Virus record (IMG/VR): IMGVR_UViG_3300019751_000156
Coordinates: 1-27,916 of that record
Source: a virus
Length of the DNA stretch: 27,916 bases
Reading direction: 5' to 3' (one strand)
In this document: positions 13,239-27,668 of the stretch, piece after piece
Position numbering within the stretch: position 1 is the stretch's first letter
How the letters are laid out: the number at the start of each line of letters is the position of its first letter
Notes under the pieces: model-generated
The model's database searches: none
What the model was told of the DNA's origin: nothing
The model's input: only the letters and a program-made list of their open reading frames with translations
Translations under genes and position numbers: made by a program

Positions 13239-13403
13239 ATGGCTAAATACAGCCGATTTGATTCCCGCAACAAAAAGCGGAATAAACATAAACAGTACTC
13301 AAAAGAAGGGTACGTAGGGAAAATACATAATGTCGAAGGAAAAAGAAGGATCAGTGAAAAACTTGATATTTCAGTACATGATCCTCAACCCCGATCTGGA
13401 TGA
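13239..13403 (+). CDS. Small basic phage protein (MAKYSRFDSRNKK family)
   Basis: 54 aa. The start SRFDSRNKKRNKHK is like small basic proteins of T4-like marine phages with an xRFDPRNKK N-terminus, which supports its being real. The last third runs inside the next gene in another frame, an overlap of 50-74 bases depending on that gene's start. The upstream GAGGG is about 14 bases away, longer than usual. Possibly nucleic-acid binding from its charge; unknown. Confidence 0.6.
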   Translation: MAKYSRFDSRNKKRNKHKQYSKEGYVGKIHNVEGKRRISEKLDISVHDPQPRSG

Positions 13404-14181
13404 ACAGAGAGGGCCTATCTTAGGACAATCACGTTCTAAGATTTATAGTGAATGCGCTGACATCTCTCGTAAATCGTTTGAGATATATGCCGATAAGATT
13501 GGTGCTGATTACTTGTATTCAGACCAAGCGGTGTATACCAAAGATGAGTATGAGAGGGACACCACCGTATGTCTCTTTGAATGTCTACGGTTAATCTACG
13601 ATCCTATCTTTGATGAATACGATAACGTGTTCTTTGCGGATACTGATATTGTAGTAAACACCGATGAGAGTATCTTTGATATCCACGAGGGGGATGTAAC
13701 AGGTATTCTAGAAAGTGATATCCGGACTGCAAGTGGTGGTGGATATAATGGTTGGGACTACAAAGAGAGTACCTACAACGATCAAGTCAGAAAGTTCGAA
13801 CATCACGGCATACCCATCACACCCGCAATGCCTCCAAATCGACCAAGTAAAATTCAGATAATGAATACTGGAGTAGTGGTTTGGTCTAAACAGGCTCGCT
13901 TACGTGCACGTGAGGTGTTTGATGATTGGAAAGAATGGTACTTCGAAGGGCCTCAAATACACATGTCCCTAATGAACGATCAACCCTACCTATCAGGTCA
14001 GTTTGTCAAACATGACTTTGACCTCAATCTAATCCTAGACCAGACATGGAATGATTCCCCGCACTATGCGACTGAGGACGAATTCTTTGAAAAGGCTAAG
14101 ATGTGTCACTACACGGGCGGTGAATGGAAGGTCGATATGATTAACCATTACCACGAAAATAAGTTCAAAATATTTGAATAA
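13354..14181 (+). CDS. GT-A-type glycosyltransferase
   Basis: 275 aa from GTG 13354, placed six bases after AGAAGGA; an in-frame ATG at 13330 would add eight charged residues. NLIFQYMI is the first beta-strand, and FFADTDIVV has the metal/nucleotide-sugar DxD at Asp96-Asp98. Later, QIMNTGVVVWSK is the N-TGV acceptor-side motif common in GT8-like and phage sugar transferases, and MNDQPYLS is the DQ motif. The donor and acceptor are unknown. It is the first of six transferases in the island and lies before the 14187 promoter, so it may be expressed with the lysis block. Confidence 0.8.
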   Translation: MKNLIFQYMILNPDLDEQRGPILGQSRSKIYSECADISRKSFEIYADKIGADYLYSDQAVYTKDEYERDTTVCLFECLRLIYDPIFDEYDNVFFADTDIVVNTDESIFDIHEGDVTGILESDIRTASGGGYNGWDYKESTYNDQVRKFEHHGIPITPAMPPNRPSKIQIMNTGVVVWSKQARLRAREVFDDWKEWYFEGPQIHMSLMNDQPYLSGQFVKHDFDLNLILDQTWNDSPHYATEDEFFEKAKMCHYTGGEWKVDMINHYHENKFKIFE

Positions 14182-14186
14182 AACGC

Positions 14187-14215
14187 TTGCCAAAACTCCC
14201 GATATGACCTATAAT
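14187..14215 (+). promoter_or_regulatory. Sigma-70-type promoter, TTGCC family, heading the sugar island
   Basis: -35 TTGCCA (14187-14192), 17-base spacer and perfect -10 TATAAT (14210-14215). AACGCTTGCC and ACCTATAATGTAT are shared with the promoter at 8660. It precedes the ATG at 14238, and no other strong promoter is seen until the late box at 20363. Confidence 0.8.
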
Positions 14216-14237
14216 GTATTAGTAATTGGGAGTTATT

Positions 14238-14831
14238 ATGGAAACAAGAAAAATGAAAGCAGATTACGAAAAGGTAATTCTGACTGATGTTGACGGCGTA
14301 CTCCTTAACTGGGGTTATGCGTTCAACATTTGGATGGAACAGCATGGCCATAAGAAAGTTGAGGACGTTTATACAGTCCACAAAGCATATGGTATTGATA
14401 GAGATGCGAGTAAAAGACTCGTAAGACAGTTCAATGAGAGTGCGGCTATTGGGTTTTTACCACCCCTTAGAGACGCTATCCACTATGTAAGAAAACTGCA
14501 TGAAGAGTATGGATACGTATTCCATGCGATTACTAGTTTGAGTCTTGATCCCCATGCGGGAGAACTCAGAACCCAAAACCTTAAGAAGTTGTTTGGAGAG
14601 ACTGCGTTTGAAAAGTATGTCTACTTAGACACTGGTGCTGACAAGGACGAAGCCCTTGCAGAGTACAAGGATACTGGATACCTCTGGGTTGAAGATAAAG
14701 TAGAAAACGCATTAGTCGGAGATAAGGCCGGACTAGATAGTGTTATAATGGAACATGGTTATAACATGCATAGAAATGAACTGCCTCTCATGAAGGGATG
14801 GAAGGACATCTATGAATATCTAGAGGGTTAA
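14238..14831 (+). CDS. HAD-superfamily phosphatase
   Basis: 197 aa from ATG 14238 with GGGAG upstream. The catalytic loop TDVDGVLLNW has nucleophile Asp17 and acid Asp19. AITSLS near residue 95 fits motif II (Thr/Ser), and LWVEDKVENA in the C-terminal third fits the acidic motif IV. It is a HAD-type hydrolase, probably of a phosphorylated sugar or nucleotide; similar proteins in T4-like phages are often called 5'-nucleotidases. It is first in the operon behind the 14187 promoter and directly abuts the carbamoyltransferase, which suggests a shared pathway. Confidence 0.8.
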   Translation: METRKMKADYEKVILTDVDGVLLNWGYAFNIWMEQHGHKKVEDVYTVHKAYGIDRDASKRLVRQFNESAAIGFLPPLRDAIHYVRKLHEEYGYVFHAITSLSLDPHAGELRTQNLKKLFGETAFEKYVYLDTGADKDEALAEYKDTGYLWVEDKVENALVGDKAGLDSVIMEHGYNMHRNELPLMKGWKDIYEYLEG

Positions 14832-16385
14832 ATGACACGATATGTAGGATTCTCAGAGTTCTATCATGATGCGGGAGTCAGTGTTATCGAAGAGGATGGC
14901 ACTGTCTCTTATGCTACACATGCAGAACGCTGGTCAAAGAAAAAGAACGATGCGACAATCCCAGAAAAACTCTGGGATTTTGTCGGCCAAAAACCAGACG
15001 AAAAAATTTCTTTCTATGAAGATTGGGCATTGAAGTTTGGTAAACGTGGTGGAATCAACGTAGATGGTGGTGTCAGAGATGATAACATGCGTTTCAGAGA
15101 CGCTGATGACAAACACTTTATAAGGTGGAGAGGTGAAAGCGATGTCCAGAAGTATTCAGCCAGGGTTCCTATACATGAAGGTCTAGTATACGACCAGTTT
15201 CATTTACATCATGAATCACATTGTGCAGGCGCACTATACACCCGCCCTTGGGACTCTATGGATGATACCGTATGTGTATCTATTGATGGTGCTGGAGAAG
15301 TCCAGTGTTCCGTTATCATGGACTCTAAGTTCAACATAATCAAAGAGTGGCACTATCCTAAGTCAATAGGAATCATCTACAGTATAGTTACAAAGGCCCT
15401 TAAACTGCGTCCCCTTGAGGATGAGTATGTTGTTATGGGACTAAGTTCTTATGGAGAGGATGAGTTCTCCGACTGGATTTACGAACAGTACCACCAATTC
15501 ACAGACGAAGCGAGAGAACTCATGGAGGGTGTCAGGATATCCTCAGAGAATTCCGCAAGAGAAAAACAAAGAAAGTCTTTCACCGCTGCACTTATACGTA
15601 GGTGTTTACGTACAACACCAGAAAACGCAGCTGCATCTGTACAGAAGTTTACAGAAAAGGCTATCATGGAGATCATGCGTGAGGCACGTAAACATGGATC
15701 AAAGTTAGTTTATTCCGGAGGGTGTGCACAGAATGTTGTGGTCAATAGTCTACTTCACGAACTATTTGATGAGGTACATATTGCAATCGCACCAGCGGAC
15801 TCAGGGTCTTCTCTAGGTGCAGCTGCAAAGACTTGGGCAGAAGAGACGGGTGGAAACAAACTAATCTGGACTCCATACATGGGGACTAATATTGACCGTG
15901 AGATCAACCCAACGGAGGTTGTAGATTACTTGTTATCAGACAAAGTATGTGGTGTTGCAAATGGACGTGCAGAGTTTGGCCCACGTGCACTAGGTAATCG
16001 ATCCTTAATTGCAGATGTCCGATATGATGTCAAGGACACAGTAAACGAAATCAAACAAAGGCAGAAGTACCGACCTTTTGCCCCTGCCATCCTTGAAGAG
16101 TATGTAGATGAGTACTTCGAAGGGCCAACAAATGAGTATATGCAGTTCACATCTAAAGCACTACATGACTATAAGTCCGTGATTCACGTAGATGGAACCG
16201 CACGTGTACAGGTTGTACGTAAAGATTGTCAGTCTATATTCAGAAAGATTATAGAAGAATATTATGAGCGCACTGGAGTGCCAATGTTACTAAATACTAG
16301 CTTGAACATCCGTGGGAGACCAATGGTAGATGATGAAGCAGATGCCAAAATCTGGCAGAGTAAATATAACATAAGGGTATTCTAA
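14832..16385 (+). CDS. O-carbamoyltransferase, NodU/CmcH/TobZ family
   Basis: 517 aa. It transfers a carbamoyl group from carbamoyl phosphate, via carbamoyl-AMP, to a hydroxyl of a sugar or base. The N-terminal Kae1-like domain shows GFSEFYHDAG, the metal site HHESH (126-130) and SIDGAGE with Asp152. SGGCAQN and then GSSLGAA follow. The C-terminal YrdC-like part has the signature GRAEFGPRALGNRS, PFAPAIL and NTSLNIRGRPMVD. All motifs expected for activity are present, and the length is slightly below the usual 550-600. In phages, carbamoyltransferases have been linked to cytosine hypermodification as well as to glycans; the substrate here is not readable. Confidence 0.93.
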   Translation: MTRYVGFSEFYHDAGVSVIEEDGTVSYATHAERWSKKKNDATIPEKLWDFVGQKPDEKISFYEDWALKFGKRGGINVDGGVRDDNMRFRDADDKHFIRWRGESDVQKYSARVPIHEGLVYDQFHLHHESHCAGALYTRPWDSMDDTVCVSIDGAGEVQCSVIMDSKFNIIKEWHYPKSIGIIYSIVTKALKLRPLEDEYVVMGLSSYGEDEFSDWIYEQYHQFTDEARELMEGVRISSENSAREKQRKSFTAALIRRCLRTTPENAAASVQKFTEKAIMEIMREARKHGSKLVYSGGCAQNVVVNSLLHELFDEVHIAIAPADSGSSLGAAAKTWAEETGGNKLIWTPYMGTNIDREINPTEVVDYLLSDKVCGVANGRAEFGPRALGNRSLIADVRYDVKDTVNEIKQRQKYRPFAPAILEEYVDEYFEGPTNEYMQFTSKALHDYKSVIHVDGTARVQVVRKDCQSIFRKIIEEYYERTGVPMLLNTSLNIRGRPMVDDEADAKIWQSKYNIRVF

Positions 16386-16714
16386 TGGCAGAAGAAGAAG
16401 TAAAAACGAAAGAATTCCATCCCGCAGATTCGAATGGGGACGGTAAAGTATCCTCTGAAGAACATGCAATGTATCTTGAGGCTAAAAGAAAAGAACTTGA
16501 TGACCAAGATGCAATGCGAGATGCACAACGTAACATGACATGGTTCGCCTTGTTTGGTTTATTGTTGTATCCGTTTGCGGTGGTAATTGCCTCACTTGTG
16601 GGTCTAGATCAAGCAGCAAAAACACTAGGTGATATGGCCCCTACATACTTTGTAGCGGTTGCTGGTATTGTGGCTGCATTCTTTGGTGCACAAGCATTTA
16701 GTAAAGGCAAGTAA
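16385..16714 (+). CDS. EF-hand membrane protein, two helices
   Basis: 109 aa. A canonical EF-hand loop lies at 15-26 (DSNGDGKVSSEE: Asp15, Asn17, Asp19, Lys21, Ser23, Glu26). A charged helix follows, then two membrane segments at about 53-74 and 85-104. Topology puts both ends on the same side, probably the cytoplasm. Small EF-hand-plus-membrane proteins are a recurring type in T4-like marine phages with no settled function. A calcium-sensing holin or envelope protein is a guess. TAATG overlap joins it to the carbamoyltransferase. Confidence 0.7.
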   Translation: MAEEEVKTKEFHPADSNGDGKVSSEEHAMYLEAKRKELDDQDAMRDAQRNMTWFALFGLLLYPFAVVIASLVGLDQAAKTLGDMAPTYFVAVAGIVAAFFGAQAFSKGK

Positions 16715-16725
16715 CAGGATGAACT

Positions 16726-17625
16726 ATGGTTATGGAAAAGGTGACATGGAGAGGAACGCCAGGCGTAGGTGATTTCATGTGGGCACTTAACTGTGTCCAC
16801 CTTCACGCTCACACTCAGAAAACAAAAGTCAACTTAGAGATGCACTGGGAACATGGCCCAGATCATTTACATCACTTCGAAGACCCCGAAACTATTATAG
16901 AAAGAATGGACTACATCCACTCGCTTTATGCGAAGAAAGATGATGTAGAGGTTTCGCACGTCTTTTATTCTGGTGATAGATATACTGATTGGAAGTATGA
17001 TGATGACGTTGTGGTTGAAAATTCAATCAAAAGAATCATGCACCCGAAAGAAAGAGGCGAAGACACCAGCGATTGGAAGGCTCGTTTCTGGTTCGAGAAT
17101 GGTAGATGGTCAGACGGGAAAGGTGACAGGTCTCCGGACAATGATTGGTTGTTTCGAAAAGAAGCGTTCAGAGATACAGTAAGAAACAAGGTTGTAGTCT
17201 GGACACCACTGTTCAATGCGGAAAAACCAAGAGGCTGGAAAACTAAGTTGACAAAGCTTGATTGGGATGTTATAATACAGAAACTACGCCGAGCGGGATT
17301 AGATGTAGTTGAGTTGTGTTACAGAACTCCTGTAAGAGAAGTTGTATATCACATATCTACATGTAGACTCGTGCTTTGTTATGATGGTATGTGGCATTAC
17401 GTTGCAAAGAACTTTGCTAAGCCTCTTGCAGTGATCAGTAAAGAGGGAGTAACTAAATACCACACCGATCATGCAATAAGAATTAATCCCGATCACTCAC
17501 CAGAACAGATTAAACAGTTTGGTAAAGATATCTGGTGGTGGTTAAACAGACCCAAAGAACTGCTGGGTCATAGTAAATACAAAGCAGTTAAATATGAAAA
17601 TGAAATGAGAAGTATTATAAAATGA
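16726..17625 (+). CDS. Glycosyltransferase-like protein (GT-B/GT9-like)
   Basis: 299 aa. The start WRGTPGVGDFMWALNCVHLH resembles the glycine-rich N-terminal loop of ADP-heptose:LPS heptosyltransferases (GT9). The C-terminal half has STCRLVLCYDGMWHYVAKNF followed by KPLAVIS, close to the GT9 donor-site pattern (D-G-x-x-H-x-A, then a Pro-Val strand). Overall similarity is weak, so only the fold is proposed. An AGG site lies six bases before the ATG. It overlaps the radical SAM gene by four bases. Trp and acidic residues are unusually frequent. Confidence 0.6.
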   Translation: MVMEKVTWRGTPGVGDFMWALNCVHLHAHTQKTKVNLEMHWEHGPDHLHHFEDPETIIERMDYIHSLYAKKDDVEVSHVFYSGDRYTDWKYDDDVVVENSIKRIMHPKERGEDTSDWKARFWFENGRWSDGKGDRSPDNDWLFRKEAFRDTVRNKVVVWTPLFNAEKPRGWKTKLTKLDWDVIIQKLRRAGLDVVELCYRTPVREVVYHISTCRLVLCYDGMWHYVAKNFAKPLAVISKEGVTKYHTDHAIRINPDHSPEQIKQFGKDIWWWLNRPKELLGHSKYKAVKYENEMRSIIK

Positions 17626-18599
17626 ATGACATTAGCATTGATCGAGCCGTTATAGAGATAAACGGTGGTTGTAACTATTCGTGTAGTATGTGTCCACAGG
17701 ACAGAAGGACTGGTGGAAGAGATAAGAGATTCCTCGCAAAGATGGGATTGGAGGAGTTCGAAAAGAACGTAAAGGATTGTGCTCAACATGGTTTACGTGT
17801 TGTCAATCTGGAGGGTTCCGGTGAACCCACACTCAATAGAAACATGCCTGAGTATGTCAAGATTGTTAAGAAGTATGGCGCAAGTTGTTTCGCATTCTCT
17901 AATGGATTTCGAATGAAGGGTAAGTTCATGCGTGACTGTGTTGATGCAGGCCTTGACTTCTACAGATTCTCATTCATTGGATCAGACGAACAGGATTACT
18001 CTAAGTGGATGTACAATACAATCCACGGACAGTATCACGAAATTAAACAGAACATCCGTGAGATGGTAGATTACGTTAACAAAACAGGAAGTAAATGTGT
18101 TATTGCTACCTATCATCTTATCACTGATAACGATAACATTGATAAAGAGTTGGAACAATATAAAGAACTTGTGGCAGAACTTGGTATCAAAACAGAAATC
18201 TGGAAGATGCATAACTGGAGCGGAGTCTACAAACCTTCCTACGATAGAGAAGGCGGGGTCAAGAGTTGCGGTAGGCCTTTTTCTCCTGACGTTGTTATTC
18301 GAGCAGGTGGTCTAGATGGTAAGAGTGGTGCAGTAGCACCCTGTTGTCAAGTATTAGGTCAAGACGAAGAGGCAGTTCTAGGTCACACTTCTGAGAATAC
18401 AATCGAAGAGGTTATTCGTGGCCCTGAGTACTCTGCGTTACGTGAGGGTCATCGAACAGGCAACTATCCAGATTACTGTAAGTCTTGTGACTTCTTAATT
18501 GACGATCCGGAAGTATTAGTTTGGACAAACCATGAGAGAGACCTATATAAGATGCATGGTACAGATTTCGATCTGAATGACTATCGGGAGATAACATGA
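17622..18599 (+). CDS. Radical SAM enzyme with SPASM-type C-terminus
   Basis: 325 aa. The radical SAM cluster motif is C17-NYS-C21-SM-C24, and GSGEP at 65-69 is the SAM-binding glycine motif. The C-terminal region has Cys216 (CGRPF), Cys241-Cys242 and C286-KS-C289, the layout of a SPASM auxiliary iron-sulfur domain. Known SPASM enzymes oxidise or cross-link peptides, dehydrogenate sugar alcohols or modify aminoglycosides, so a sugar or virion peptide substrate is possible. Its place among glycosyltransferases favours sugar chemistry; this is inference. ATGA overlaps on both sides show strict coupling. Confidence 0.88.
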   Translation: MNDISIDRAVIEINGGCNYSCSMCPQDRRTGGRDKRFLAKMGLEEFEKNVKDCAQHGLRVVNLEGSGEPTLNRNMPEYVKIVKKYGASCFAFSNGFRMKGKFMRDCVDAGLDFYRFSFIGSDEQDYSKWMYNTIHGQYHEIKQNIREMVDYVNKTGSKCVIATYHLITDNDNIDKELEQYKELVAELGIKTEIWKMHNWSGVYKPSYDREGGVKSCGRPFSPDVVIRAGGLDGKSGAVAPCCQVLGQDEEAVLGHTSENTIEEVIRGPEYSALREGHRTGNYPDYCKSCDFLIDDPEVLVWTNHERDLYKMHGTDFDLNDYREIT

Positions 18600-18826
18600 A
18601 AAAATTAATAGAATGGTTAAAGACCTTATTCCTTGAAGAGTACGAACTGACCGTATGGTATAAAGGCGGTACAGATTTTGACCCCAAGACTACCAAAAGA
18701 GTCTACAGGATGAAGTCTATTTCCAAGAAAACACAAACACATTTTAAGGGTACACAGACTAATGGTAAGTCCCTTGAAATCAAAACAACAGCACCATTTG
18801 ATTATCAGATAGAGAAACTATATTAA
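18596..18826 (+). CDS. Small conserved phage protein (EYELTVWYK family)
   Basis: 76 aa. An amphipathic start (MKKLIEWLKTLFLEEYELTV) is followed by a beta-rich body (KRVYRMKSISKKTQTHF, then GKSLEIKTTAPFDYQIEKLY). I recognise this small protein from many T4-like marine phages, where it occurs in varied gene settings and has no function assigned. It lies between the radical SAM and a glycosyltransferase gene with ATGA/TAATG overlaps, so it is co-translated with the island, but it need not be part of the pathway. Confidence 0.65.
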   Translation: MKKLIEWLKTLFLEEYELTVWYKGGTDFDPKTTKRVYRMKSISKKTQTHFKGTQTNGKSLEIKTTAPFDYQIEKLY

Positions 18827-19611
18827 TGAAGCGAATGATCTATCAGGTTGCCGTAGGTAAACCTTCTAAATTATACGAACACTGTATTGAAAGTGTTTCT
18901 TATTATTGCCAAAAGCATGATATTGTACATTATGTGCAACGTTCTCCGGTGTATCGTATTGCACCCGATCCATTTAACATGGGCCGGTCTCGTGAGTCTT
19001 TTGAGAAGTATGGTGGTTATCTACCCATCTTTGAGAAAGAAGTGGCCTTTGATTACCTACCCAACTACGATCAGATCGCAATCATAGATGCAGACATCTA
19101 CATCAAACCGGACGCACCAAATATCTTCGAAGACTTTGGAACGGAACATGCCTTCGGGGCTGTCTGTGAACGTGACATGCATATTGAACCTTGGTATGTA
19201 AACAAAATACAGAACTACTCAATGATGCAGTATGGACACTTGCATACAAACAAGATTGACTTCAGACCGAATCAACACGGATTTGAGTTCTTCAATATGG
19301 GTATGATACTTTTAAATTCTGAGAGTTTCCTACCATTTTTGAAGGGACAGTCTGGTAAACAATTTATTGAACGTTCAGAGTTCAAAGACTTTGTTGACGG
19401 TAAAGGTGCATGGAAGTGGTCTACCGATCAGACACTACTGAACTATTTTCTAAAGAAGTATAAAGTACCTGTTCGACATATGAATCCTAAGTGGAATGGA
19501 TTGTATACTGCTGTAAAAAACTTAGATAACTGTGAGTTCATTCACTTCTTCCTGAAGGACAAGTTGCCTGACGGAGGAGAAAACATTAAAGAGTTAATGC
19601 GTGGACTATGA
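18826..19611 (+). CDS. GT-A glycosyltransferase (GT8-like)
   Basis: 261 aa. IAIIDADIYIKPDAPNIF carries the DxD motif (Asp88-Asp90) on the expected strand. GFEFFNMGMILLN is the N-M-G acceptor motif, WSTDQTLLNYFLKK the DQ motif, and PKWNGLY plus EFIHFF the C-terminal metal-binding area. Together these fit a metal-dependent GT8-like sugar transferase. Donor sugar and acceptor unknown. No signal or membrane anchor, so it acts in the cytoplasm. It overlaps the next gene by four bases. Confidence 0.82.
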   Translation: MKRMIYQVAVGKPSKLYEHCIESVSYYCQKHDIVHYVQRSPVYRIAPDPFNMGRSRESFEKYGGYLPIFEKEVAFDYLPNYDQIAIIDADIYIKPDAPNIFEDFGTEHAFGAVCERDMHIEPWYVNKIQNYSMMQYGHLHTNKIDFRPNQHGFEFFNMGMILLNSESFLPFLKGQSGKQFIERSEFKDFVDGKGAWKWSTDQTLLNYFLKKYKVPVRHMNPKWNGLYTAVKNLDNCEFIHFFLKDKLPDGGENIKELMRGL

Positions 19612-20381
19612 AACCCAAAGTAAAATTTGCATTACAGTACCCGTCTGGTGCTGGGGGTATGTTTCTTACTGAGTTAATTTATCCCACTACCGAAGATGAA
19701 TCTGGTAAGTGGCCAACTAACCCCGGCTGCAAGAGAAACGTACTCTGGAACGAGTACGGTGGGTCTCTTCACTGTCGCCAACTTGATGGGACTACCGAAC
19801 CCCTAGAGGTAGACGATAGAACTATCTTGGTTGCAAAACAAAACATAGAAAACTATCTACCCCACTACGATGTGCCTATCACATATGTCATCGACGCAAG
19901 TGATGATGACTCATTTGAATACACCCTAGAACTTATGTTCATAAAGAAGTGGTTATCTCCAAGGTTAAGTATGTCTGAGGATGACCGCAAGTTGATTGAC
20001 GATTCTGGTGTAGAGGTTCCTCATAATATTGTTGACAAGTATAGTCTTGCCGTGTTACAATACGTGAAACATGGCAGAGATGAATGGTCTCTAGAGCGTA
20101 ACATCTATGGATATAGAAACGCCTGGCTTAAAGACGGGAAAGAAAAACGACCCGCTGAAGTATGGGTGAAGAACCAGTATAGGAATCTAGTCATCAACCA
20201 TGAAGAGATTGAGAAACATAGTAAGTTAGAGATAATCAACTATGCGGATTTGTTTCTATACGGATTACCGACAGAGACAATCTTTGATAAGTATGAACAG
20301 AAGATACTAGAGTATCGAAAAAGAAATGATGAAATTCTCATGATGTTTGAGAAAGAAATTGTTATAAATAGCACAAGGTGA
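19608..20381 (+). CDS. Sulfotransferase-like P-loop protein (tentative)
   Basis: 257 aa. The N-terminus LQYPSGAGGMFLTELIY looks like the strand-loop-helix that binds the 5'-phosphosulfate end of PAPS, with a Gly-rich loop in place of Walker A. The rest is charged and helical, with VWVKNQYRNLVINHEEIEKH in the C-terminal third. No clear 3'-phosphate motif (R..S) is visible, so assignment to sulfotransferases is uncertain; it could be another P-loop kinase-like family. Its last bases contain the late promoter at 20363. Confidence 0.45.
   Translation: MKPKVKFALQYPSGAGGMFLTELIYPTTEDESGKWPTNPGCKRNVLWNEYGGSLHCRQLDGTTEPLEVDDRTILVAKQNIENYLPHYDVPITYVIDASDDDSFEYTLELMFIKKWLSPRLSMSEDDRKLIDDSGVEVPHNIVDKYSLAVLQYVKHGRDEWSLERNIYGYRNAWLKDGKEKRPAEVWVKNQYRNLVINHEEIEKHSKLEIINYADLFLYGLPTETIFDKYEQKILEYRKRNDEILMMFEKEIVINSTR
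20363..20370 (+). promoter_or_regulatory. T4-type late promoter box (TATAAATA)
   Basis: An exact TATAAATA inside the last codons of the preceding gene, 50 bases before the ATG at 20421. It and the box at 301 share TATAAATAG. It stands before the only gene here with a long leader and an AAAGGAG ribosome site, which supports function. It would raise expression of the di-iron protein and the downstream genes late in infection. Confidence 0.65.
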
Positions 20382-20420
20382 ACTATCTATATTAAGAGTG
20401 TGAATTTAAAGGAGAACCCT

Positions 20421-21119
20421 ATGCAACAACCTAAAGAATTTGTGAATCAACTTCGCAAAGAAAACCAAGCGCTTTTCGAAGCGTCTAAAATGAATGTCAA
20501 AGCCTACTTCGAAGGTGACCTACCTGAAGAAGAAATGGTTGATCACTTCATTGGCCGTATGGTTAATGAAAGAATGAACATGACAGAAATCTCTGCACAG
20601 ATCGCCAAGGTAGACGATAATGCAGACCCTAAAGAACTTGAACTTCTAACCAGACAAGCAGCTGATGAAGCAAAGCACTATCGTATGGTTAAAGAAGTAA
20701 TCGAACATATTAAGGGTGAAGAGATTAATGTTGCTGAAGCGCTTGAAGCAGAACGTCAAGCAGACACAGCAAAAGGTGCAACACTTCTAGAGAAGTACGA
20801 TGCGGAGAATGATGAAGCAGTTCTTGCTGCCTATCAGTTAGTTGCGGAAGGACGTGCGGAAGCGGTCTGGAATCAAATGGCAGATACGATCAAGGATGAA
20901 TTTATTTCTAGTCGTTATCGTACAATCGCAAAGGATGAAGGTTTCCATTCCTCTATTGGTGGATGGAAGTTGCGTAAACTTGCAACAGATGAAGAAACAC
21001 AATCACGTGTTAAATCAGTTGTTGAGAAGATGCGTAAAGACCTTTTCGAAATCTCGTGTGCAAACACAGTAGAAGCTAACGGATCAAGAGAACTAGTAAA
21101 CGAAGCCTACGGCTGGTAA
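20421..21119 (+). CDS. Ferritin-like di-iron protein
   Basis: 232 aa, all-helical. Six likely metal ligands appear in ferritin-like order: Glu50, Glu83-xx-His86 (DEAKH), Glu143 or Glu147 (AEGRAEAVW) and Glu173-xx-His176 (DEGFH). This is the two-ExxH pattern of di-iron oxygenases, oxidases and rubrerythrin-like proteins. No substrate-defining motif is recognised; hydroxylation of a sugar, base or amino acid, or protection from peroxide, are options. AAAGGAG lies six bases before the ATG at 20421, and the late promoter at 20363 feeds it. In-frame sequence upstream of 20421 lacks such a site. Confidence 0.8.
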   Translation: MQQPKEFVNQLRKENQALFEASKMNVKAYFEGDLPEEEMVDHFIGRMVNERMNMTEISAQIAKVDDNADPKELELLTRQAADEAKHYRMVKEVIEHIKGEEINVAEALEAERQADTAKGATLLEKYDAENDEAVLAAYQLVAEGRAEAVWNQMADTIKDEFISSRYRTIAKDEGFHSSIGGWKLRKLATDEETQSRVKSVVEKMRKDLFEISCANTVEANGSRELVNEAYGW

Positions 21120-21125
21120 TAGATT

Positions 21126-21704
21126 ATGAAAATTGGACTGACTCAAAGAGTAGTCCTTTATTCGGAACGATCTGGAATCACGGGTGACTTCACTGATCAT
21201 GGGTGGTATGATTCACCTCTGACCAAAGGTCACACGTTGATTCCTGTTCCGAACAGAAAGGACTTAGATTATGACGGACTTGCTGAAGAGTTAGACCTTC
21301 TGATCATAACTGGTGGTAGGAACGAAGACATTCGTGTCATCACCGAAACCGAAATAGCAACCTCAATGGTATCAATGGGCAAACCTGTTCTGGGTATTTG
21401 TCATGGTGCCTTCTTACTTACCCACATTTTGGGTGGACAAGTTGACGGCGATAAAGAACAACACTTCTTCTCAGAACATACCAACTACTATGAAACACAA
21501 GGTAGAGAAGTTACAGTTAATAGTTCCCACACCGTCTTCATAAAGAACAAACCACCCGGCGCACAGATTCTCTGTACCGATCCCGAAGGAGACTGCGAGT
21601 CTTGGATCAAGGATAACATCTGTGCTATAGTATGGCATCCAGAAAGAATGGATGTTCCATTTGTACCAGATGAAATTCTAGAAGCTACGGGACTAACATT
21701 ATGA
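21126..21704 (+). CDS. Class I glutamine amidotransferase-like protein
   Basis: 192 aa. The triad of class I amidotransferases is complete: nucleophile Cys92 in GICHGAFLL, then His171 and Glu173 in VWHPERM, with the LLIITGGRNED loop before them. Such proteins release ammonia from glutamine for a partner synthase, or hydrolyse gamma-glutamyl compounds (peptidase C26). No synthase domain is fused, so a partner in the island would be needed; surface-sugar amidotransferases of the HisH/WbpH kind are a parallel. The ATGATGA overlap couples it to the cupin gene. Confidence 0.82.
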   Translation: MKIGLTQRVVLYSERSGITGDFTDHGWYDSPLTKGHTLIPVPNRKDLDYDGLAEELDLLIITGGRNEDIRVITETEIATSMVSMGKPVLGICHGAFLLTHILGGQVDGDKEQHFFSEHTNYYETQGREVTVNSSHTVFIKNKPPGAQILCTDPEGDCESWIKDNICAIVWHPERMDVPFVPDEILEATGLTL

Positions 21705-22375
21705 TGAACGATCTATCACATAACTCAATTACAAATGTCACGAACATTTGGCAGTATCAGGTTCATGTCTGGAAGGGTATGAACGACAACATAACAATGC
21801 CTGAACACGAGGGTACAAGATACATTCTATCTCTCGACGCATCAATCCACACCGATACAATTAACATGGGTGGGTTACAATGTAACGCATTACAAACCAA
21901 TTGTAAGAGTCCTTGGGCAAAGTTACATAAACAAACATCTACGGTTGTGGATATTAGGTTCTCAGGGTTGAACCTAAACGAAGAAAGCATGTATGTCACA
22001 GACGGTCTAACGACAGGAAACTTGTCTTACATGGATGGTGGTACTAACAGCAATGCAATCAGTCCACCTCGTGCGGGTCTGCCTGTTGTCAACTACACAC
22101 ACTTTCCCGCAAAGATGTCTCAAACCCTACACACCCACCCTAGTCAGAGAATCGGTTTGGTTCTAAATGGCCATGGTGAAATTGAATTAGATAATCACAA
22201 ACACTTTCGACTTGAGAAAGGTTCTGTCTTTTTTATGGAACGTAATACACTACATAATTTCATAACGCATGACGAAGACGTAACCCTTTTCGTGTTTGCC
22301 CCCGACTCCGGAACAGGGCCAACAGATGAAGTGAATCCTTTGAAGGTACGTACTTATGTCGGACAACAACGATAA
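21701..22375 (+). CDS. Cupin-domain protein
   Basis: 224 aa. The C-terminal domain (about 135-205) has cupin motif 1, HTHPSQRIGLVLNGHGEIEL, and a motif 2 built from GSVFFMERNTLHNF. The metal ligands would be His-x-His, Glu or Gln, and the later His. The first 130 residues match nothing I know but could be a second, degenerate cupin barrel. Cupins in glycan clusters are often sugar epimerases or isomerases, or sensors. A second ATG three bases downstream is an equally possible start. It overlaps the next gene by 20 bases. Confidence 0.75.
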   Translation: MMNDLSHNSITNVTNIWQYQVHVWKGMNDNITMPEHEGTRYILSLDASIHTDTINMGGLQCNALQTNCKSPWAKLHKQTSTVVDIRFSGLNLNEESMYVTDGLTTGNLSYMDGGTNSNAISPPRAGLPVVNYTHFPAKMSQTLHTHPSQRIGLVLNGHGEIELDNHKHFRLEKGSVFFMERNTLHNFITHDEDVTLFVFAPDSGTGPTDEVNPLKVRTYVGQQR

Positions 22376-22994
22376 AAAACTTATTATTATAACAGGCCCA
22401 CAGGGTTCTGGTAATCACCTTTTTAGTAAAATATTCAATGTCCATCCGGATGTAAATGGATGGGACTTTGGAGACAAGTACTGGATTCCCAGTGACGAAG
22501 AACCTTTCGCTGAATGTTGGGTAGACCCATCTAAAACAAAAGAGAAACTTACCGGACGTTACATGGTAGCGAATGTTAGTGTACCTTTCGTATATGATGG
22601 TGTACGTCAAGTTCCTAAGATACAGGAAGTGGCGGACGAAGCGAGAGAAGCTGGTTATGAAGTTACTATTGCGATTGTTTGTAGAGATGCAAATATCAAT
22701 GCACTGCAACAGAAGAGAGTTCGATTTGAGATCACTCTGGGACAAGCGATGGAATATTATCGCAACCTACAAAACGTTGAACGTGCATTTCTATCACACG
22801 AGTCGTTGTACCTTCACAAATGTATGTACCTAAAGTGGTTGTCTACGATACTAGACTTTCCTATTGCATTCTCGGACAAACAAGTGTTTGCTCATCTAGA
22901 AGAAGATCAGAACCGCAAGTATGTTACATACGTAGAACAACACTGGTTGGATCAACAGGTTTGGGATGGATTAAGGCCTAAAAGTGAAAGATAA
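22356..22994 (+). CDS. P-loop protein, probable sulfotransferase-like
   Basis: 212 aa. IIITGPQGSGNHLFSKIF places a P-loop at 14-21 followed by a helix, as in a group of phage proteins I recall labelled sulfotransferase-like. IAIVCRDANINALQQKRVRF near residues 105-124 would be the 3'-phosphate/helix region, and SHESLYL with HKCMYLKWLSTIL follows. A kinase is the main alternative. It is coupled to the genes on both sides (overlaps of 20 and 11 bases), the downstream one having a related N-terminal loop. Confidence 0.55.
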   Translation: MSDNNDKKLIIITGPQGSGNHLFSKIFNVHPDVNGWDFGDKYWIPSDEEPFAECWVDPSKTKEKLTGRYMVANVSVPFVYDGVRQVPKIQEVADEAREAGYEVTIAIVCRDANINALQQKRVRFEITLGQAMEYYRNLQNVERAFLSHESLYLHKCMYLKWLSTILDFPIAFSDKQVFAHLEEDQNRKYVTYVEQHWLDQQVWDGLRPKSER

Positions 22995-23586
22995 CTATGT
23001 TCTAATGACAGGTGCGCCTGGCAGTAGGTGGAGTAGTGTGGCGAATAGTCTTATGCGATGCGTAGACTTTGACATCACTGACAAGTCATCTGATCGAGCT
23101 TATAAACATCACAATGGTCTATTACATTCGGGTTCATACTTTGACCCCGGCATGGAGTTTGAGTTTGAAAAGGATCAGTGGGACTTACCCTTTAATTCCT
23201 ATCATGACCAGTGTAAGAAACGTCTCATCAAGTCACATACTCTTGCAACTCAATTAAAGAACTATAAGAAGTACCCTATTGTTTTGGTACTGAGAAATGA
23301 CTGGGAGTGTTTTAATTGGTGGATGGAATGTGGAGGGTTTGATATTCAATACCCCAACTACCAGTGGTATAAAAATCCGAACAATATGTTTTTACAGATT
23401 CAAAGGCAAAATAAAGCTATTAACAAATTCATATATAATAACACGAACAAAATAGTTAAATGTACAACTAACAGGGGAACCATAAAGGCATTAGGTCTAA
23501 GTGATTACGGAATGTCTGATCCTGCTGTTATTGATAATTACAATGAGAGGGATATTTGTGTCTATGTCTACAAATCCACATCGTGA
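22984..23586 (+). CDS. Sulfotransferase-like phage protein (TGAPGSRWSS family)
   Basis: 200 aa from GTG 22984. The loop MTGAPGSRWSSVANSL, then SGSYFDPGMEFEF, RLIKSHTLA, PIVLVLRNDWECFNWWMECG and FDIQYPNYQWY match a protein family I recognise in T4-like marine phages near sugar genes. The R-N-D and S-H-T motifs sit where sulfotransferases hold the 3'-phosphate of PAPS, but activity has not been shown to my knowledge. Paired with the preceding P-loop gene by an 11-base overlap. An enzyme or a glycan-binding role are both possible. Confidence 0.6.
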   Translation: MKDNYVLMTGAPGSRWSSVANSLMRCVDFDITDKSSDRAYKHHNGLLHSGSYFDPGMEFEFEKDQWDLPFNSYHDQCKKRLIKSHTLATQLKNYKKYPIVLVLRNDWECFNWWMECGGFDIQYPNYQWYKNPNNMFLQIQRQNKAINKFIYNNTNKIVKCTTNRGTIKALGLSDYGMSDPAVIDNYNERDICVYVYKSTS

Positions 23587-24115
23587 GTTTTTAAAAGATT
23601 ACTTCACTAACACATGGCCTACTTCTCGTACCGCTGGTTTTGATCGTTACTATTGGACGGGGTTTAGGTTAATTGATGAAATTGCAAAAGAAGAAAGAGT
23701 ACTTGATGTCGGTTGTGGAGTTAATCCTCTTAAGCGCCATCTTCCTAATTTGCATGGTATCGATATCACCGATATAGGTGCGGACGAAGTTGTCGCAATA
23801 GAAGACTTCGAAGTATTTGGTGCACCCTATGAAGATCATTTTGATGTGGCTCTTTGTCTGGGTAGTTTGAATTTTGGGGATAGAGATTTAATCAGATTGC
23901 AATGTAAGAAAGTTGCAGAAGCATTAAAACCTAAATCAAGAATTTACTGGAGATGTAATCCAGGCCATCGTGATCATGGCAACAATAGAGTTGGAGAAGT
24001 ACCTTTCTTCAATTGGACTATTGAAGATCATTTAGAGTTTGCAAAAGAAAATGGGTTTAGAGTGACAGAGTTCATGCCCGATGAAAATAGGATGTATGTG
24101 AAATGGGAACGTTAA
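23558..24115 (+). CDS. SAM-dependent methyltransferase
   Basis: 185 aa from GTG 23558, six bases after AGAGGG; an ATG at 23564 is the close alternative and one at 23543 is also in frame. SAM-binding motif I is VLDVGCG at 48-54, motif II acidic LHGIDITD, and FDVALCLGSLNFGD is the motif IV strand. It is a Rossmann class I methyltransferase with no target domain for DNA recognition, so a small-molecule, sugar or protein target is likely. It overlaps the preceding gene by 29 bases and the next by 13. Confidence 0.82.
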   Translation: MSMSTNPHREFLKDYFTNTWPTSRTAGFDRYYWTGFRLIDEIAKEERVLDVGCGVNPLKRHLPNLHGIDITDIGADEVVAIEDFEVFGAPYEDHFDVALCLGSLNFGDRDLIRLQCKKVAEALKPKSRIYWRCNPGHRDHGNNRVGEVPFFNWTIEDHLEFAKENGFRVTEFMPDENRMYVKWER

Positions 24116-24732
24116 GAAATTTGTTTGATAAGTATGATTGTGACAAGGGAACTAAAAAACATAAGTATGACCGTTGTTACGAACCCTATATGGAAGATCG
24201 TCGATACGATCAACTCAACATTCTTGAGATTGGATGTTTCAGGGGAGAGAGTACCGAAGCTTTCCTAGAGTATTTCCCTCATGCAACTATCTTTACAATT
24301 GATATCTTTGAAAGACATCAAGCATCAACCATTGATGTACTGAAAGAAGAAAGAGTCAAGTGGATGAAACATGACAGTACTCATGCCGCTCTTGCTATGA
24401 AAATAAGAAGAGAGTGGGGGGATATTAAGTTTGACTTTATCATTGATGATGGTGCACACTGGCCCGAAGCAAACAGAAAAACATTTGAAAATCTTATTGA
24501 CTTACTAGACCAAGATGGTGTATACTTCATTGAAGACGTTTGGATGTTAGACCGCATGAAGTCTAATCCTTGGACAGATGCAAGACCACATTTATACTCT
24601 ATGCCCGAACACGTCCGATTCATGAACACGGTTGAGAAGTATGACCTAAAACATTACGACTATCGCACCACCAAGATTAAAGGTTTCGGTGCATATCCGG
24701 ACAGTTATATACTGAGGATCAAACATGGGTAG
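24103..24732 (+). CDS. SAM methyltransferase, sugar O-methyltransferase/CmcI-like
   Basis: 209 aa. Motif I is ILEIGCFRGES at 40-50, followed by TIDIFER near 65-71 and IIDDGAHWPEAN at 113-124. The last motif, with D-D-G-x-H, is typical of the metal-dependent sugar O-methyltransferases (MycE, CmcI and Methyltransf_24-type). Neighbouring glycosyltransferases fit methylation of a sugar hydroxyl. The start ATG overlaps the upstream stop by 13 bases; a TTG downstream would give a shorter form but breaks the coupling. Confidence 0.8.
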   Translation: MGTLRNLFDKYDCDKGTKKHKYDRCYEPYMEDRRYDQLNILEIGCFRGESTEAFLEYFPHATIFTIDIFERHQASTIDVLKEERVKWMKHDSTHAALAMKIRREWGDIKFDFIIDDGAHWPEANRKTFENLIDLLDQDGVYFIEDVWMLDRMKSNPWTDARPHLYSMPEHVRFMNTVEKYDLKHYDYRTTKIKGFGAYPDSYILRIKHG

Positions 24733-25426
24733 TCAAAAGATATTCATTCACATCCCTAAGAACGGTGGGATGACTATACGTAGGAACCCAGATTTACGCA
24801 AACAGATTATTGTATGTACTCCTGATATACACAGAACTAGAGAGTACACAAAAGGCCTAGAAGAAAAGATGAGAAGCGTTGGCGATGTCATGGGGTATGA
24901 ACATGCACGTTGGCGAGATTTAAAGAAAGAGGTTCGTCAAGAATACAAATCATTTGCAATTGTACGCAATCCGTGGTCACGTGTAGTATCTCGTTACTGG
25001 TTTGCGAAGAAAGTTATTGAGGTTGAAAAAAGTTCAGATCACTATGGTGAACATGGGTATGCAGACATCTCATCATTCGAAGCGTTTCTAGAAGAACGTC
25101 ATAAGTGGGGTGGTGTTGATTATATGTGGCATCGTGCAGTACGTGGATGGTATCCAGCCAAAGATCACGTGGTGGATAAGTTTGGAACCGTACAGTGTGA
25201 CATACTTCGATTTGAGAACTACAACGAAGACATAAAAGATTATATGGGCATTCTGTTTAATCCAGAACCCCGCAATGTTACAAACCTACATAAGGGAACC
25301 TATCAGGACATGTACACCGATAAGACCATTCAGATTATTGCTGATTGGTACAAGGATGACATAGATTACTGGGGGTTTGATTTTGACACCGGAGCGCAGA
25401 AGAATTACTGGAATGAACGTGGTTGA
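24725..25426 (+). CDS. Sulfotransferase (PAPS-dependent)
   Basis: 233 aa. It has both PAPS-binding signatures: the 5'-phosphosulfate loop IHIPKNGGMT (8-17) and the 3'-phosphate motif VRNPWSRVVSRYW (80-92), as in the Sulfotransfer_2 group. This is the clearest sulfotransferase of the island and transfers sulfate to a hydroxyl or amine, probably of a sugar. PAPS must come from the host; no PAPS synthesis gene is seen. AGGATC precedes the ATG at 24725. No membrane anchor, so it is cytoplasmic, unlike eukaryotic Golgi forms. Confidence 0.88.
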   Translation: MGSQKIFIHIPKNGGMTIRRNPDLRKQIIVCTPDIHRTREYTKGLEEKMRSVGDVMGYEHARWRDLKKEVRQEYKSFAIVRNPWSRVVSRYWFAKKVIEVEKSSDHYGEHGYADISSFEAFLEERHKWGGVDYMWHRAVRGWYPAKDHVVDKFGTVQCDILRFENYNEDIKDYMGILFNPEPRNVTNLHKGTYQDMYTDKTIQIIADWYKDDIDYWGFDFDTGAQKNYWNERG

Positions 25427-25436
25427 GGCTATTGAG

Positions 25437-26357
25437 ATGGCTAACAAGGTAGAAAGTCCCGAACCAACTCAGACTGATCTGAATGGTAATCTTTTTATCA
25501 AAGCAATAATCATCTCATTGACCGATGATGGAGCAGCGACACATAGCACTAGACGATTGTTGAAGAGTATTCGTAATACACATTCGTATATCAATCCTCT
25601 GGTGATGGATGCGTCTACGCCTGACACTGCAAGGGATGGATTGATATCCATATCTCACCGTGACTTTTCAAATGCAAGGTGGACTTGGCCTATAGAAGAT
25701 CGTGCAAATGGTCTTGACATTGCTACGGGGTTGTACCGAAAGAAGTATGAAGCAAGTGACCATCGTAAAGTAATTGCATGTATGGTCTCACACATGCGGG
25801 CGTGGCAACACTGTATTGACATGAACGAACCTATCATGGTTCTAGAACAAGACGCATTGTTTATTCGACAGTTCAGTTGGCATCAAATCGAAAATCCTAG
25901 ACCACTAGCTATTGATGATGAATGGTGGAATAGGTGGTTAGACACTAGAGAGATGTCAGTTCTCCCGTGGGATATTAAAGATAAGTGGAAGAATATGCAC
26001 GAGTCATGTAAACAAAAACCAGAGGGTAAATTCTCCGGAGGTATCCTTGGACTCAATAGTCCTATTGGTGCCACACGTAAGTCATCTATCTTTCATGGTA
26101 AACTGTTTGGTAAATATGGATTTCACAAGGTTCCTTCCGTGGATACTATTGGAGACGATCCTTTACCACAGGGTCTAGCAGGAAACTCTGCGTACATCAT
26201 CAAACCTTGGGCTGCTAAGAAACTACTAGATAAAGTAGACGAAATAGGAATGTGGCCTAATGACGCATTAATGTGTAAACAATTCTTCCCTTGGATGCAA
26301 GTGATATGGCCTTACTACACAGTAGTTCAAGGTGGGCCTTCCTCGACAACAGGATAA
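25437..26357 (+). CDS. GT25-like glycosyltransferase
   Basis: 306 aa from ATG 25437, which has GAGG eight bases upstream; an in-frame ATG at 25413 lies inside the previous gene and lacks a ribosome site. IKAIIISLT is the first strand. KVIACMVSHMRAWQHCI with MVLEQDALF (136-140 LEQDA) matches the GT25 pattern SHxxxW plus EDDA, although the central residue is Gln. GNSAYIIKPWAAKKLL and the end WPYYTVVQG also fit. GT25 enzymes add galactose or similar sugars to LPS or to hydroxylysine. It is the first of three transferases in a row. Confidence 0.78.
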   Translation: MANKVESPEPTQTDLNGNLFIKAIIISLTDDGAATHSTRRLLKSIRNTHSYINPLVMDASTPDTARDGLISISHRDFSNARWTWPIEDRANGLDIATGLYRKKYEASDHRKVIACMVSHMRAWQHCIDMNEPIMVLEQDALFIRQFSWHQIENPRPLAIDDEWWNRWLDTREMSVLPWDIKDKWKNMHESCKQKPEGKFSGGILGLNSPIGATRKSSIFHGKLFGKYGFHKVPSVDTIGDDPLPQGLAGNSAYIIKPWAAKKLLDKVDEIGMWPNDALMCKQFFPWMQVIWPYYTVVQGGPSSTTG

Positions 26358-26361
26358 CATA

Positions 26362-27015
26362 ATGAAAAACTTTGTAATTGGTATAATTGATAATCCAAAA
26401 TCAGTTGCGGCTGCAGAACGTTGTATGTTGTCTGGTGAAAGGTATGGATCAGAGATCAACATGTTCAAGGCAATCACACCAAAAGATGACCCCGTGAAGA
26501 TTGCGGAGAAAGAAGGAATCAACGTAAAAGGTTTCGAAGAGGTTTACTCTCGTTTTGAAAACTGTCTATCTGCCTTCCTATCTCACTTCACATTGTGGAA
26601 ACAATGCTTGGAGTCAAAAGAAGTTTATACCATATTTGAACATGATGCAGTTCTGGAAGACGCAATTCCAAACAAACCATTTACTGGTGTAATGAACATA
26701 GGAAAACCTTCTTATGGTAAATGGAACACACCTAGTCACCTTGGAGTAGGCCCTCTTATCACCAAAAGATATTTTCCTGGCGCACATGCCTATCAGGTAG
26801 AACCTAGAGGTGCTAGTGCGTTGATTAATATTGCAAGAGACAATCGTGCGAAACCTACAGATGTATTTTTACACCTCGACACTTTCCCTTGGTTGCAAGA
26901 ACACTACCCCTTTATTGCTAAGGCTGATGATTCCTTTACGACAATTCAAGTAGAACGGGGATGTTTAGCAAAGCATAACTATAACGAAGATTACAAAATT
27001 GAGACTATAAAATGA
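26362..27015 (+). CDS. GT25-like glycosyltransferase
   Basis: 217 aa from ATG 26362, seven bases after AGGA. NFVIGIIDNPKSVAAAERC is the first strand and helix. CLSAFLSHFTLWKQC with TIFEHDAVLED (EHDAV at 93-97) is the GT25 motif, and GAHAYQVEPRGASALI the later one. It is short for the family, so a minimal catalytic domain, and probably a diverged paralogue of the upstream gene, with which it shares the SH...W/E.DA order. It overlaps the next transferase gene by four bases. Confidence 0.76.
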   Translation: MKNFVIGIIDNPKSVAAAERCMLSGERYGSEINMFKAITPKDDPVKIAEKEGINVKGFEEVYSRFENCLSAFLSHFTLWKQCLESKEVYTIFEHDAVLEDAIPNKPFTGVMNIGKPSYGKWNTPSHLGVGPLITKRYFPGAHAYQVEPRGASALINIARDNRAKPTDVFLHLDTFPWLQEHYPFIAKADDSFTTIQVERGCLAKHNYNEDYKIETIK

Positions 27016-27668
27016 AATTAGATAAATTATTTATTACAGGGTGCGATGTCAACACAGAGTGGCAATTGCCTTGGTTCTGGGAAAACTATAAGGAGTATAA
27101 CGACACTCCTTTGTTGATTATGGATTTTGGTATGTCCAAAGACATGCGTGTTTGGGTCGAAGAAAACATCTTTGAATGTGTAGATGTTCTCACACAGGCC
27201 GAGGGTTGGTTCAAGAAACCTTCTGCGATGTTACGTGCATGTGAAGAATCCGAAAAGGTTTGTTGGTTAGATACCGATTGTCAAGTGTTTGGAGATATCT
27301 CATCCATCTTCGATCTTACTGTACCCTTTAAGATTGGTATGGTAGAGGACAGACCGTGGACAAAGAGACGTGGTGAGTATGGTGCGTGGTATAATTCGGG
27401 TGTCGTTGTTTGGGAGGGTAAACCAAACATCCTACGTGCATGGGCAGAACAGTGTATCAATGATGGATGGGTAGGTGACCAAGAAACTCTCTATGCAATG
27501 ATGGGTGGTGATGAGATCATGAAGATGTCAATCATCGAACCGTTACCGCATAAATACAATACGTTACGACTAGATTATGTAGATAATATTGCGGTCAAGA
27601 ATCCTCTTATTGTCCATCATACTGGTAAGAAAGGAAAAGAAGTTATAAAGGAGCAAATAGATGTTTAG
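27012..27668 (+). CDS. GT-A-type glycosyltransferase
   Basis: 218 aa. VCWLDTDCQVFGD carries DxD at Asp87-Asp89, GAWYNSGVVVWEG is the N-S-G acceptor motif, WVGDQETLYAMM the DQ motif, and PLIVHHTGKKGKE the C-terminal His-rich metal site. This places it with the GT8-like metal-dependent transferases. Substrates unknown. It is the last enzyme of the island in this window; the spanin-like gene begins inside its last codons. Confidence 0.8.
   Translation: MKLDKLFITGCDVNTEWQLPWFWENYKEYNDTPLLIMDFGMSKDMRVWVEENIFECVDVLTQAEGWFKKPSAMLRACEESEKVCWLDTDCQVFGDISSIFDLTVPFKIGMVEDRPWTKRRGEYGAWYNSGVVVWEGKPNILRAWAEQCINDGWVGDQETLYAMMGGDEIMKMSIIEPLPHKYNTLRLDYVDNIAVKNPLIVHHTGKKGKEVIKEQIDV

Follow-up and report, generated by a model that had tools for sequence, protein, structure and literature searches.

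The stretch of DNA analysed here (the window) is the 27,916-base virus record IMGVR_UViG_3300019751_000156, a fragment of the incomplete genome of an uncultured marine T4-like phage. It carries an island (13330-27668) of approximately 21 genes on the same strand, listed in Table 1. The island is composite: a glycan block, comprising six glycosyltransferase (GT)-like proteins, an O-carbamoyltransferase, a radical SAM/SPASM enzyme and one clear sulfotransferase, is combined with a separable cassette of six genes (20421-24115) named here FERR, GATs, CUP, PL2, PL3 and MT1. The analysis was wholly computational and concerns uncultured contigs; the counts given below are of contigs, which are not mutually independent.

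Organization of the island and separability of the cassette

The initial annotation described the island as a run of genes joined by short overlaps, selected to be made together and acting on one product. The gene cluster itself is real: gene content and order are kept across dozens of contigs, and the ratio of nonsynonymous to synonymous substitution rates (dN/dS) between the window and its closest relative is 0.03-0.33 for every island gene tested, indicating purifying selection. Most junctions do overlap, by 1-23 nucleotides, but the main exceptions, a 44-base pair (bp) gap before the HAD gene and one of 18 bp in front of FERR, the diiron gene, each contain a conserved promoter motif. In the same comparison with the closest relative, CUP and the carbamoyltransferase gene have a dS above that of most neighbouring island genes, which suggests gene-wise or piecewise recombination.

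A single product for all members does not agree with gene content across about 300 viral loci. Searches recovered at least 223 viral relatives of FERR and 321 of the radical SAM enzyme, onto whose loci the window proteins were mapped. In the 38 contig groups that reach from the radical SAM gene as far as the last GT genes, the six cassette genes are all present in 15, lack only the cupin in 2, are entirely absent from 20 and are reduced to two genes in 1: the cassette is all-or-nearly-none in 37/38 groups, with the glycan genes staying in place. On the radical SAM tree, the presence of FERR changes 9 times, and 6 of these changes (gains or losses) are forced by well-supported branches. In a further 38 loci, which are distant ones, FERR is present although the GT block is missing, and many of these loci adjoin DNA-replication genes; GATs accompanies FERR in 37 of the 38, and most have PL3, MT1 and PL2. 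A search centred on the cupin gave 62 flanked loci with FERR (59), PL2 (59), GATs (57), MT1 (55) and PL3 (53), and one centred on PL3 (at least 580 relatives) found MT1 in all 42 flanked loci. Because of this co-occurrence, the separability from the glycan genes and the changes on the radical SAM tree, we regard the cassette as a co-inherited mobile unit. Independent swapping of genes among related phages had been named at the outset as the result that would argue against one pathway, and this is what is seen for block 20421-24115; the comparison of related phages reveals a conserved glycan island but a cassette that moves separately.

The cassette also has a late promoter motif of its own. 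In addition to its occurrence in island phages (Table 1), the T4-type motif TATAAATA, with a chance expectation of about 0.01 per 120 bases, lies upstream of FERR in 6/25 distant relatives, and it precedes none of the other five cassette genes. It moves with the cassette: relatives without FERR have no motif at this position, except for contig L104, which has kept part of the cassette. The two contigs closest to the window (91 kb and 147.6 kb) encode island proteins 84-100% identical to those of the window. The longer one, IMGVR_UViG_3300024264_000006 (referred to as G004), is near-complete and encodes homologues of the tail sheath, tail tube, baseplate wedge and gp32-type single-stranded DNA-binding proteins. 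These T4-type tail and gp32-type genes identify the phage as T4-like, as the initial annotation had proposed, and TATAAATA precedes the tail sheath, tail tube, baseplate and structural genes of G004; in T4-like cyanophages, the late motif has been published before such genes (PMC2984593). Expression of the cassette from this T4-type late promoter would probably coincide with that of the tail genes. The HAD gene is preceded instead by a sigma-70-like promoter (TTGCCA-17-TATAAT), and 33 of 62 distinct HAD upstream regions match at 10/12 positions or better (1.5 expected), which suggests that the upstream part of the glycan block is expressed early. In a second clade, the late motif sits before the carbamoyltransferase gene instead.

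Table 1. Positions of the island genes, flanking genes and promoter motifs in the window.
Feature	Position	Strand	Basis or occurrence
Lysozyme-domain protein (upstream flank)	12624-13082	+	PHROG baseplate hub/tail lysozyme 3e-20; endolysin 5e-11
GT8-like glycosyltransferase a	13330-14181	+	DTD motif; Pfam GT8 2.4e-4, just under cut-off; 34/38 contig groups
Sigma-70-like promoter before HAD	14187-14215	+	11/12 match
HAD-like phosphatase (HAD)	14253-14831	+	phrog_420 1.6e-32 (PHROG function unknown); 36/38 contig groups
O-carbamoyltransferase (NodU/CmcH type)	14832-16385	+	Carbam_trans_N and Carbam_trans_C above cut-offs; phrog_1601 2.7e-78
Small protein with EF-hand-like N-terminus and two hydrophobic segments	16385-16714	+	Weak EF-hand match
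GT-B/heptosyltransferase-like protein (tentative)	16726-17625	+	NCBIfam E 0.06, sub-threshold; 38/38 contig groups
Radical SAM/SPASM enzyme	17622-18599	+	Pfam 1.2e-13 and 6e-7
Small protein, no assigned function	18596-18826	+	23 related loci; no PHROG match
GT8-like glycosyltransferase b	18826-19611	+	DAD motif; Pfam 1.4e-4, just under cut-off; 28/38 contig groups
PL1, P-loop-like	19608-20381	+	Motif only; rare, 6/38 contig groups
T4-type late promoter motif TATAAATA	20363-20370	+	Upstream of FERR in 27/27 distinct island relatives
FERR, helical-bundle diiron protein	20421-21119	+	Start 20421, AAGGAG in front
GATs, class I glutamine amidotransferase/gamma-glutamyl hydrolase-like	21126-21704	+	Peptidase_C26, GATase
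CUP, metal cupin	21701-22375	+	Cupin_2 4e-9; C-terminal half highly conserved
PL2, sulfotransferase-fold P-loop protein	22356-22994	+	AlphaFold2 model
PL3, P-loop protein	22984-23586	+	GAPGS[RK]WS; family alignment
MT1, SAM methyltransferase	23564-24115	+	Start 23564 likely; Methyltransf_23 3e-4, below cut-off
MT2, SAM methyltransferase	24103-24732	+	Methyltransf_24 3e-8; phrog_21658 2e-15
SULF, carbohydrate-type sulfotransferase	24725-25426	+	Sulfotransfer_2 2.3e-6, 28.4 bits against a cut-off of 22
GT25 glycosyltransferase a	25413-26357	+	Pfam 2.2e-11
GT25 glycosyltransferase b	26362-27015	+	Pfam 1.4e-8
GT8 glycosyltransferase c	27012-27668	+	DTD motif; Pfam 2.6e-5, above cut-off
Rz-like spanin, cut by window end	27661-27915	+	Homologues in relative

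Proteins of the cassette and the glycan block

FERR is a ferritin-like diiron protein: the ligand set E57, E90xxH93, E150 and E180xxH183 (numbered from 20400) is invariant in 35 sequences and lies on the helices of a confident AlphaFold2 model (predicted local distance difference test [pLDDT] score of 91), as expected from the initial annotation. The best Foldseek matches of this model are CADD, TenA homologues, UndA and AetD (template modelling [TM] score up to 0.66). The top matches belong to the haem-oxygenase-like diiron oxidases (HDO), yet the ligand spacing of FERR, with its two ExxH motifs, is ferritin-like, and there is no sequence similarity to CADD, UndA or AetD. No match to FERR was found among PDB sequences by profile, in 50,697 GenBank phage records or in PHROGs.

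The amidotransferase and cupin assignments hold as well, with Peptidase_C26/GATase and Cupin_2 matches that pass the Pfam cut-offs. The GATs triad (C92, H171 and E173) and the CUP histidines H144, H146 and H185 are invariant. Three further proteins had been put forward as probable sulfotransferases, and only PL2 retains this assignment in part: its model (pLDDT 92) has tyrosylprotein sulfotransferase TPST1 as the top Foldseek match (E 5e-5, TM 0.51), but nucleotide kinases match too, and by eye a glutamine is found where the serine of the 3'-phosphate site would be expected for binding of 3'-phosphoadenosine 5'-phosphosulfate (PAPS). PL2 has no match in the 50,697 GenBank phage records. PL1 and PL3 are P-loop-like by motif only: neither has a sulfotransferase match in Pfam or PHROG, a search of PDB with the PL3 profile found no sulfotransferase, and comparison of the PL2 and PL3 profiles shows no kinship beyond the P-loop. 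The PL3 of a distant relative had matches in just two marine virus records, both from single cells and unannotated. Of the two proposed S-adenosylmethionine (SAM) methyltransferases, MT2 passes its Pfam cut-off; MT1 is weak in Pfam but forms a conserved family that co-occurs with PL3.

In the glycan block, the O-carbamoyltransferase (with both of its domains), the radical SAM/SPASM enzyme and SULF pass Pfam cut-offs, in agreement with their original assignments. SULF is a PAPS sulfotransferase by its Sulfotransfer_2 domain and also matches phrog_3347, galactose-3-O-sulfotransferase (5.5e-9). The count of six GTs is partly sustained: two Glyco_transf_25 proteins and one Glyco_transf_8 protein score above the cut-offs, and GT8-like a and b fall just below (21.2 and 21.9 bits compared to the Pfam cut-off of 24.3) with their DxD motifs kept. 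The sixth (16726-17625) has only a sub-threshold heptosyltransferase-like tail, and its profile has no match among PDB sequences. The HAD-like phosphatase contains HAD motif I (DVDGVL), as read by eye. With several GTs and sugar-modifying enzymes in one run, the island has the make-up of a lipopolysaccharide (LPS)-type cluster; no nucleotidyltransferase or nucleoside diphosphate-sugar enzyme is among its Pfam and PHROG matches, and a cytidyltransferase-like gene is present outside the island in a relative. The small protein at 16385-16714, with two hydrophobic segments, is predicted to be holin-like by topology; neither it nor the flanking lysozyme and spanin genes had been listed in the initial annotation. 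At the downstream edge of the island, a relative holds two Rz-like genes (phrog_739, 8.5e-14; phrog_812, 3.7e-12).

Distribution of the cassette and comparison with known systems

Parts of the cassette are found in two bacterial genomes of the Oxalobacteraceae, Janthinobacterium sp. UMAB-56 and Massilia atriviolacea, both of which have FERR-CUP-PL2 and PL3-MT1; the amidotransferase was not detected in either. Based on a Pfam run on the Janthinobacterium copy, these loci also hold an NMT1-type solute-binding protein, a permease, a sulfatase-family protein and a 2H phosphoesterase, as well as a PaaK-like gene recognized by eye (no Pfam match). FERR is sporadic in this family, since beyond trivial matches it occurs in only 2/295 genomes scanned. 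The two copies provide isolates in which the cassette could be studied.

Transporter genes are linked to the cassette in other marine phages. Among 80 PL3-MT1 loci, a TctA permease is encoded in 41 (1.7e-94 for one) and a TctC-like binding protein, assigned by its appearance and a very weak UPF0065 match, in 54; a TctC-type protein is also encoded near FERR in 7 distant loci. The tctA/TctC-like genes lie beside PL3-MT1 in contigs L258-L337 (for example L291:3523-4959). Phage tctA has been noted earlier, with no role given (PMC4164917). This linkage would fit small-molecule metabolism better than a purely polymer-bound task. Two other families recur at these loci: a 342-amino acid protein with the look of an amidinotransferase or dimethylarginine hydrolase (L335:6234-7262; assigned by eye, no Pfam match) is near PL3-MT1 in 11 loci, and a 218-amino acid family without a Pfam match (L323:1228-1884) is present in 35/80 PL3 loci and 27/38 distant FERR loci.

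Two apparent cellular matches were rejected. A cassette-bearing contig (L163) of a Nitrosopumilaceae metagenome-assembled genome (MAG) was set aside as archaeal evidence because a 660-amino acid frame (L163:2748-4730) combines phage-like sequence with a truncated CCA-adding enzyme of archaea, a fusion suggestive of chimeric assembly or of an insertion. The other match, in a Rhodobacteraceae MAG (L162), is on a contig that is viral and nearly identical to L071.

The initial description of the cluster as unusual was overstated, as comparable ones have been published. LPS gene clusters are carried by cyanophages P-SSM2, S-SM2 and S-SSM7, T4-like marine phages (PMC3037559). That of P-SSM2 is near phoH and tRNA genes, as is the island here, and some cyanophages likewise carry a carbamoyltransferase (PMC3037559). 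Unlike these clusters, the island has lysozyme and spanin genes at its borders, and FERR and PL2 are unmatched in GenBank phages. Pelagimyophages have host-recognition/hypervariable islands, rich in GT8 and with inserted radical SAM cassettes, which have been read as changing the host O-chain against co-infection; the available text of that report describes no diiron/amidotransferase/cupin cassette or late promoter (PMC7029224). A cluster in cyanophage S-SSM6a encodes a carbamoyltransferase, a cupin-like oxygenase, a methylase and a HAD phosphatase, and is predicted to make a secondary metabolite (PMC7824862); it has a halogenase and 2-oxoglutarate oxygenases where this island has a diiron enzyme, an amidotransferase and a P-loop pair. 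The core of the glycan block is also found in Phage C48C1 (OQ984149, Kyanoviridae), in which lysozyme, GT8a, HAD, carbamoyltransferase, GT-B-like and radical SAM genes occur in the same order and encode proteins 54-74% identical to those of the window. This phage, mostly annotated as hypothetical, has neither the FERR cassette nor a match to SULF, GT25 or GT8c. It is also the best match for the G004 tail sheath, which is at most 44% identical to that of any GenBank phage. Among the papers available to the analysis, none deals with Phage C48C1 or with a diiron gene cluster in a phage.

Proposed function and alternatives

The model that we favour, with middling confidence, is that of a glycan block joined by a late-expressed, mobile cassette for oxidation and group transfer. 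The scheme that we infer, in its chemistry, substrate, step order, attachment site and timing, is the following. The GTs, carbamoyltransferase, radical SAM/SPASM enzyme, HAD phosphatase and sulfotransferase would probably build and decorate a short glycan, sited on either the host envelope or the virion. FERR and CUP would oxidise an amine- or amino-acid-like precursor; GATs would remove or supply a glutamine-derived group; MT1 would carry out a methylation; and PL2, probably with PL3, would move a sulfuryl or phosphoryl group. The product may be hung on the glycan in island phages and used without a glycan elsewhere. More tentatively, the cassette may constitute an undescribed biosynthetic pathway of phages, common among uncultured aquatic ones and expressed along with the virion genes, whose product is a small molecule that has been oxidised, methylated and either sulfated or phosphorylated. 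If so, the linked transporters in other phages and in bacteria would point to exchange of this molecule or its precursor with the surroundings. Because FERR and PL3 have so many viral relatives, yet FERR and PL2 are unmatched in GenBank phages, this would be a frequent phage metabolic function that has so far gone unnamed. Marine phage glycan islands are usually lumped as "LPS genes"; here, promoter motifs, a gene tree and co-occurrence divide one of them into parts that are separately testable.

Several points weigh against this model. The Foldseek E-values of FERR are weak (about 0.01-0.04) and that of PL2 is modest, no relative of PL3 with a known function could be detected, and no cassette member has a characterised close homologue. 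The expression timing is read from promoter motifs. The transporter genes accompany none of the island phages (0/42), in which the cassette is always found beside glycan genes; as SULF, GT25 and GT8c are on the same strand with overlapping genes, a shared product is possible there.

These last observations lead to the first alternative, one integrated glycan pathway in which FERR to MT1 make or install an unusual pendant group, such as one bearing an amidate, sulfate or methyl. The tight overlaps, the synteny kept in dozens of contigs and the presence of a clear sulfotransferase and a carbamoyltransferase in the same run are all consistent with this, as is the resemblance of GATs to gamma-glutamyl-CDP-amidate hydrolase (NF045546, 1.8e-9, below cut-off), an enzyme of the Campylobacter O-methyl phosphoramidate capsule modification. 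The glutamine kinase and cytidylyltransferase of the O-methyl phosphoramidate pathway are not, however, among the cassette Pfam and PHROG matches. We consider this alternative unlikely overall, given that the cassette is absent from 20/38 otherwise similar islands, occurs without GTs elsewhere and has its own promoter motif.

Less probable still is direct modification of tail or capsid proteins by late-made PL2/PL3, MT1 and FERR. Radical SAM/SPASM enzymes frequently modify peptides, and the late motif shared with tail and baseplate genes and the TPST1 match of PL2 would suit such a role. That match is at the level of fold only, with kinases nearly as good; no substrate peptide was identified; and the transporter linkage in other phages and the presence in bacterial genomes argue against it.

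Hypermodification of DNA by the island glycosyl-, carbamoyl- and methyltransferases after base hydroxymethylation, another product suggested initially, is very improbable. Although distant cassettes adjoin replication genes and a TET domain is present in a related contig, neither a TET domain nor a member of the thymidylate synthase/dCMP hydroxymethylase family was found in G004, the closest near-complete relative, and the promoter motif of the cassette is of the late type. The contig in question (G008, the contig of locus L143) is T4-like, with the TET/JBP dioxygenase domain at 130083-130541, and encodes the radical SAM enzyme but lacks FERR.

Stuffer DNA without a selected role, which has been considered for the LPS genes of cyanophages (PMC3037559), is scarcely credible and largely refuted: many island genes are optional across relatives, but the purifying selection on all those tested argues against filler, as do the invariant catalytic residues and conserved promoter motifs.

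Upstream of the island, the window encodes nrdA, nrdB, a phoH-like ATPase, the lysozyme and one tRNA-Arg, the sole match in an Rfam scan. In a near-identity DNA search against GenBank phages, ribonucleotide reductase was the only match. Comparison to an anti-phage defence library returned only generic radical SAM (viperin-type), methyltransferase and QueC matches. A QueC-like PP-loop protein adjoins an adenylate-forming (ANL) enzyme at 6815-8640; none of the first 161 related loci fetched matched the QueC-like gene, though G004 has both QueC-like and ANL genes. A small protein at 6427-6846 belongs to phrog_447 ("NAD synthetase" by name) and also matches homing endonucleases.

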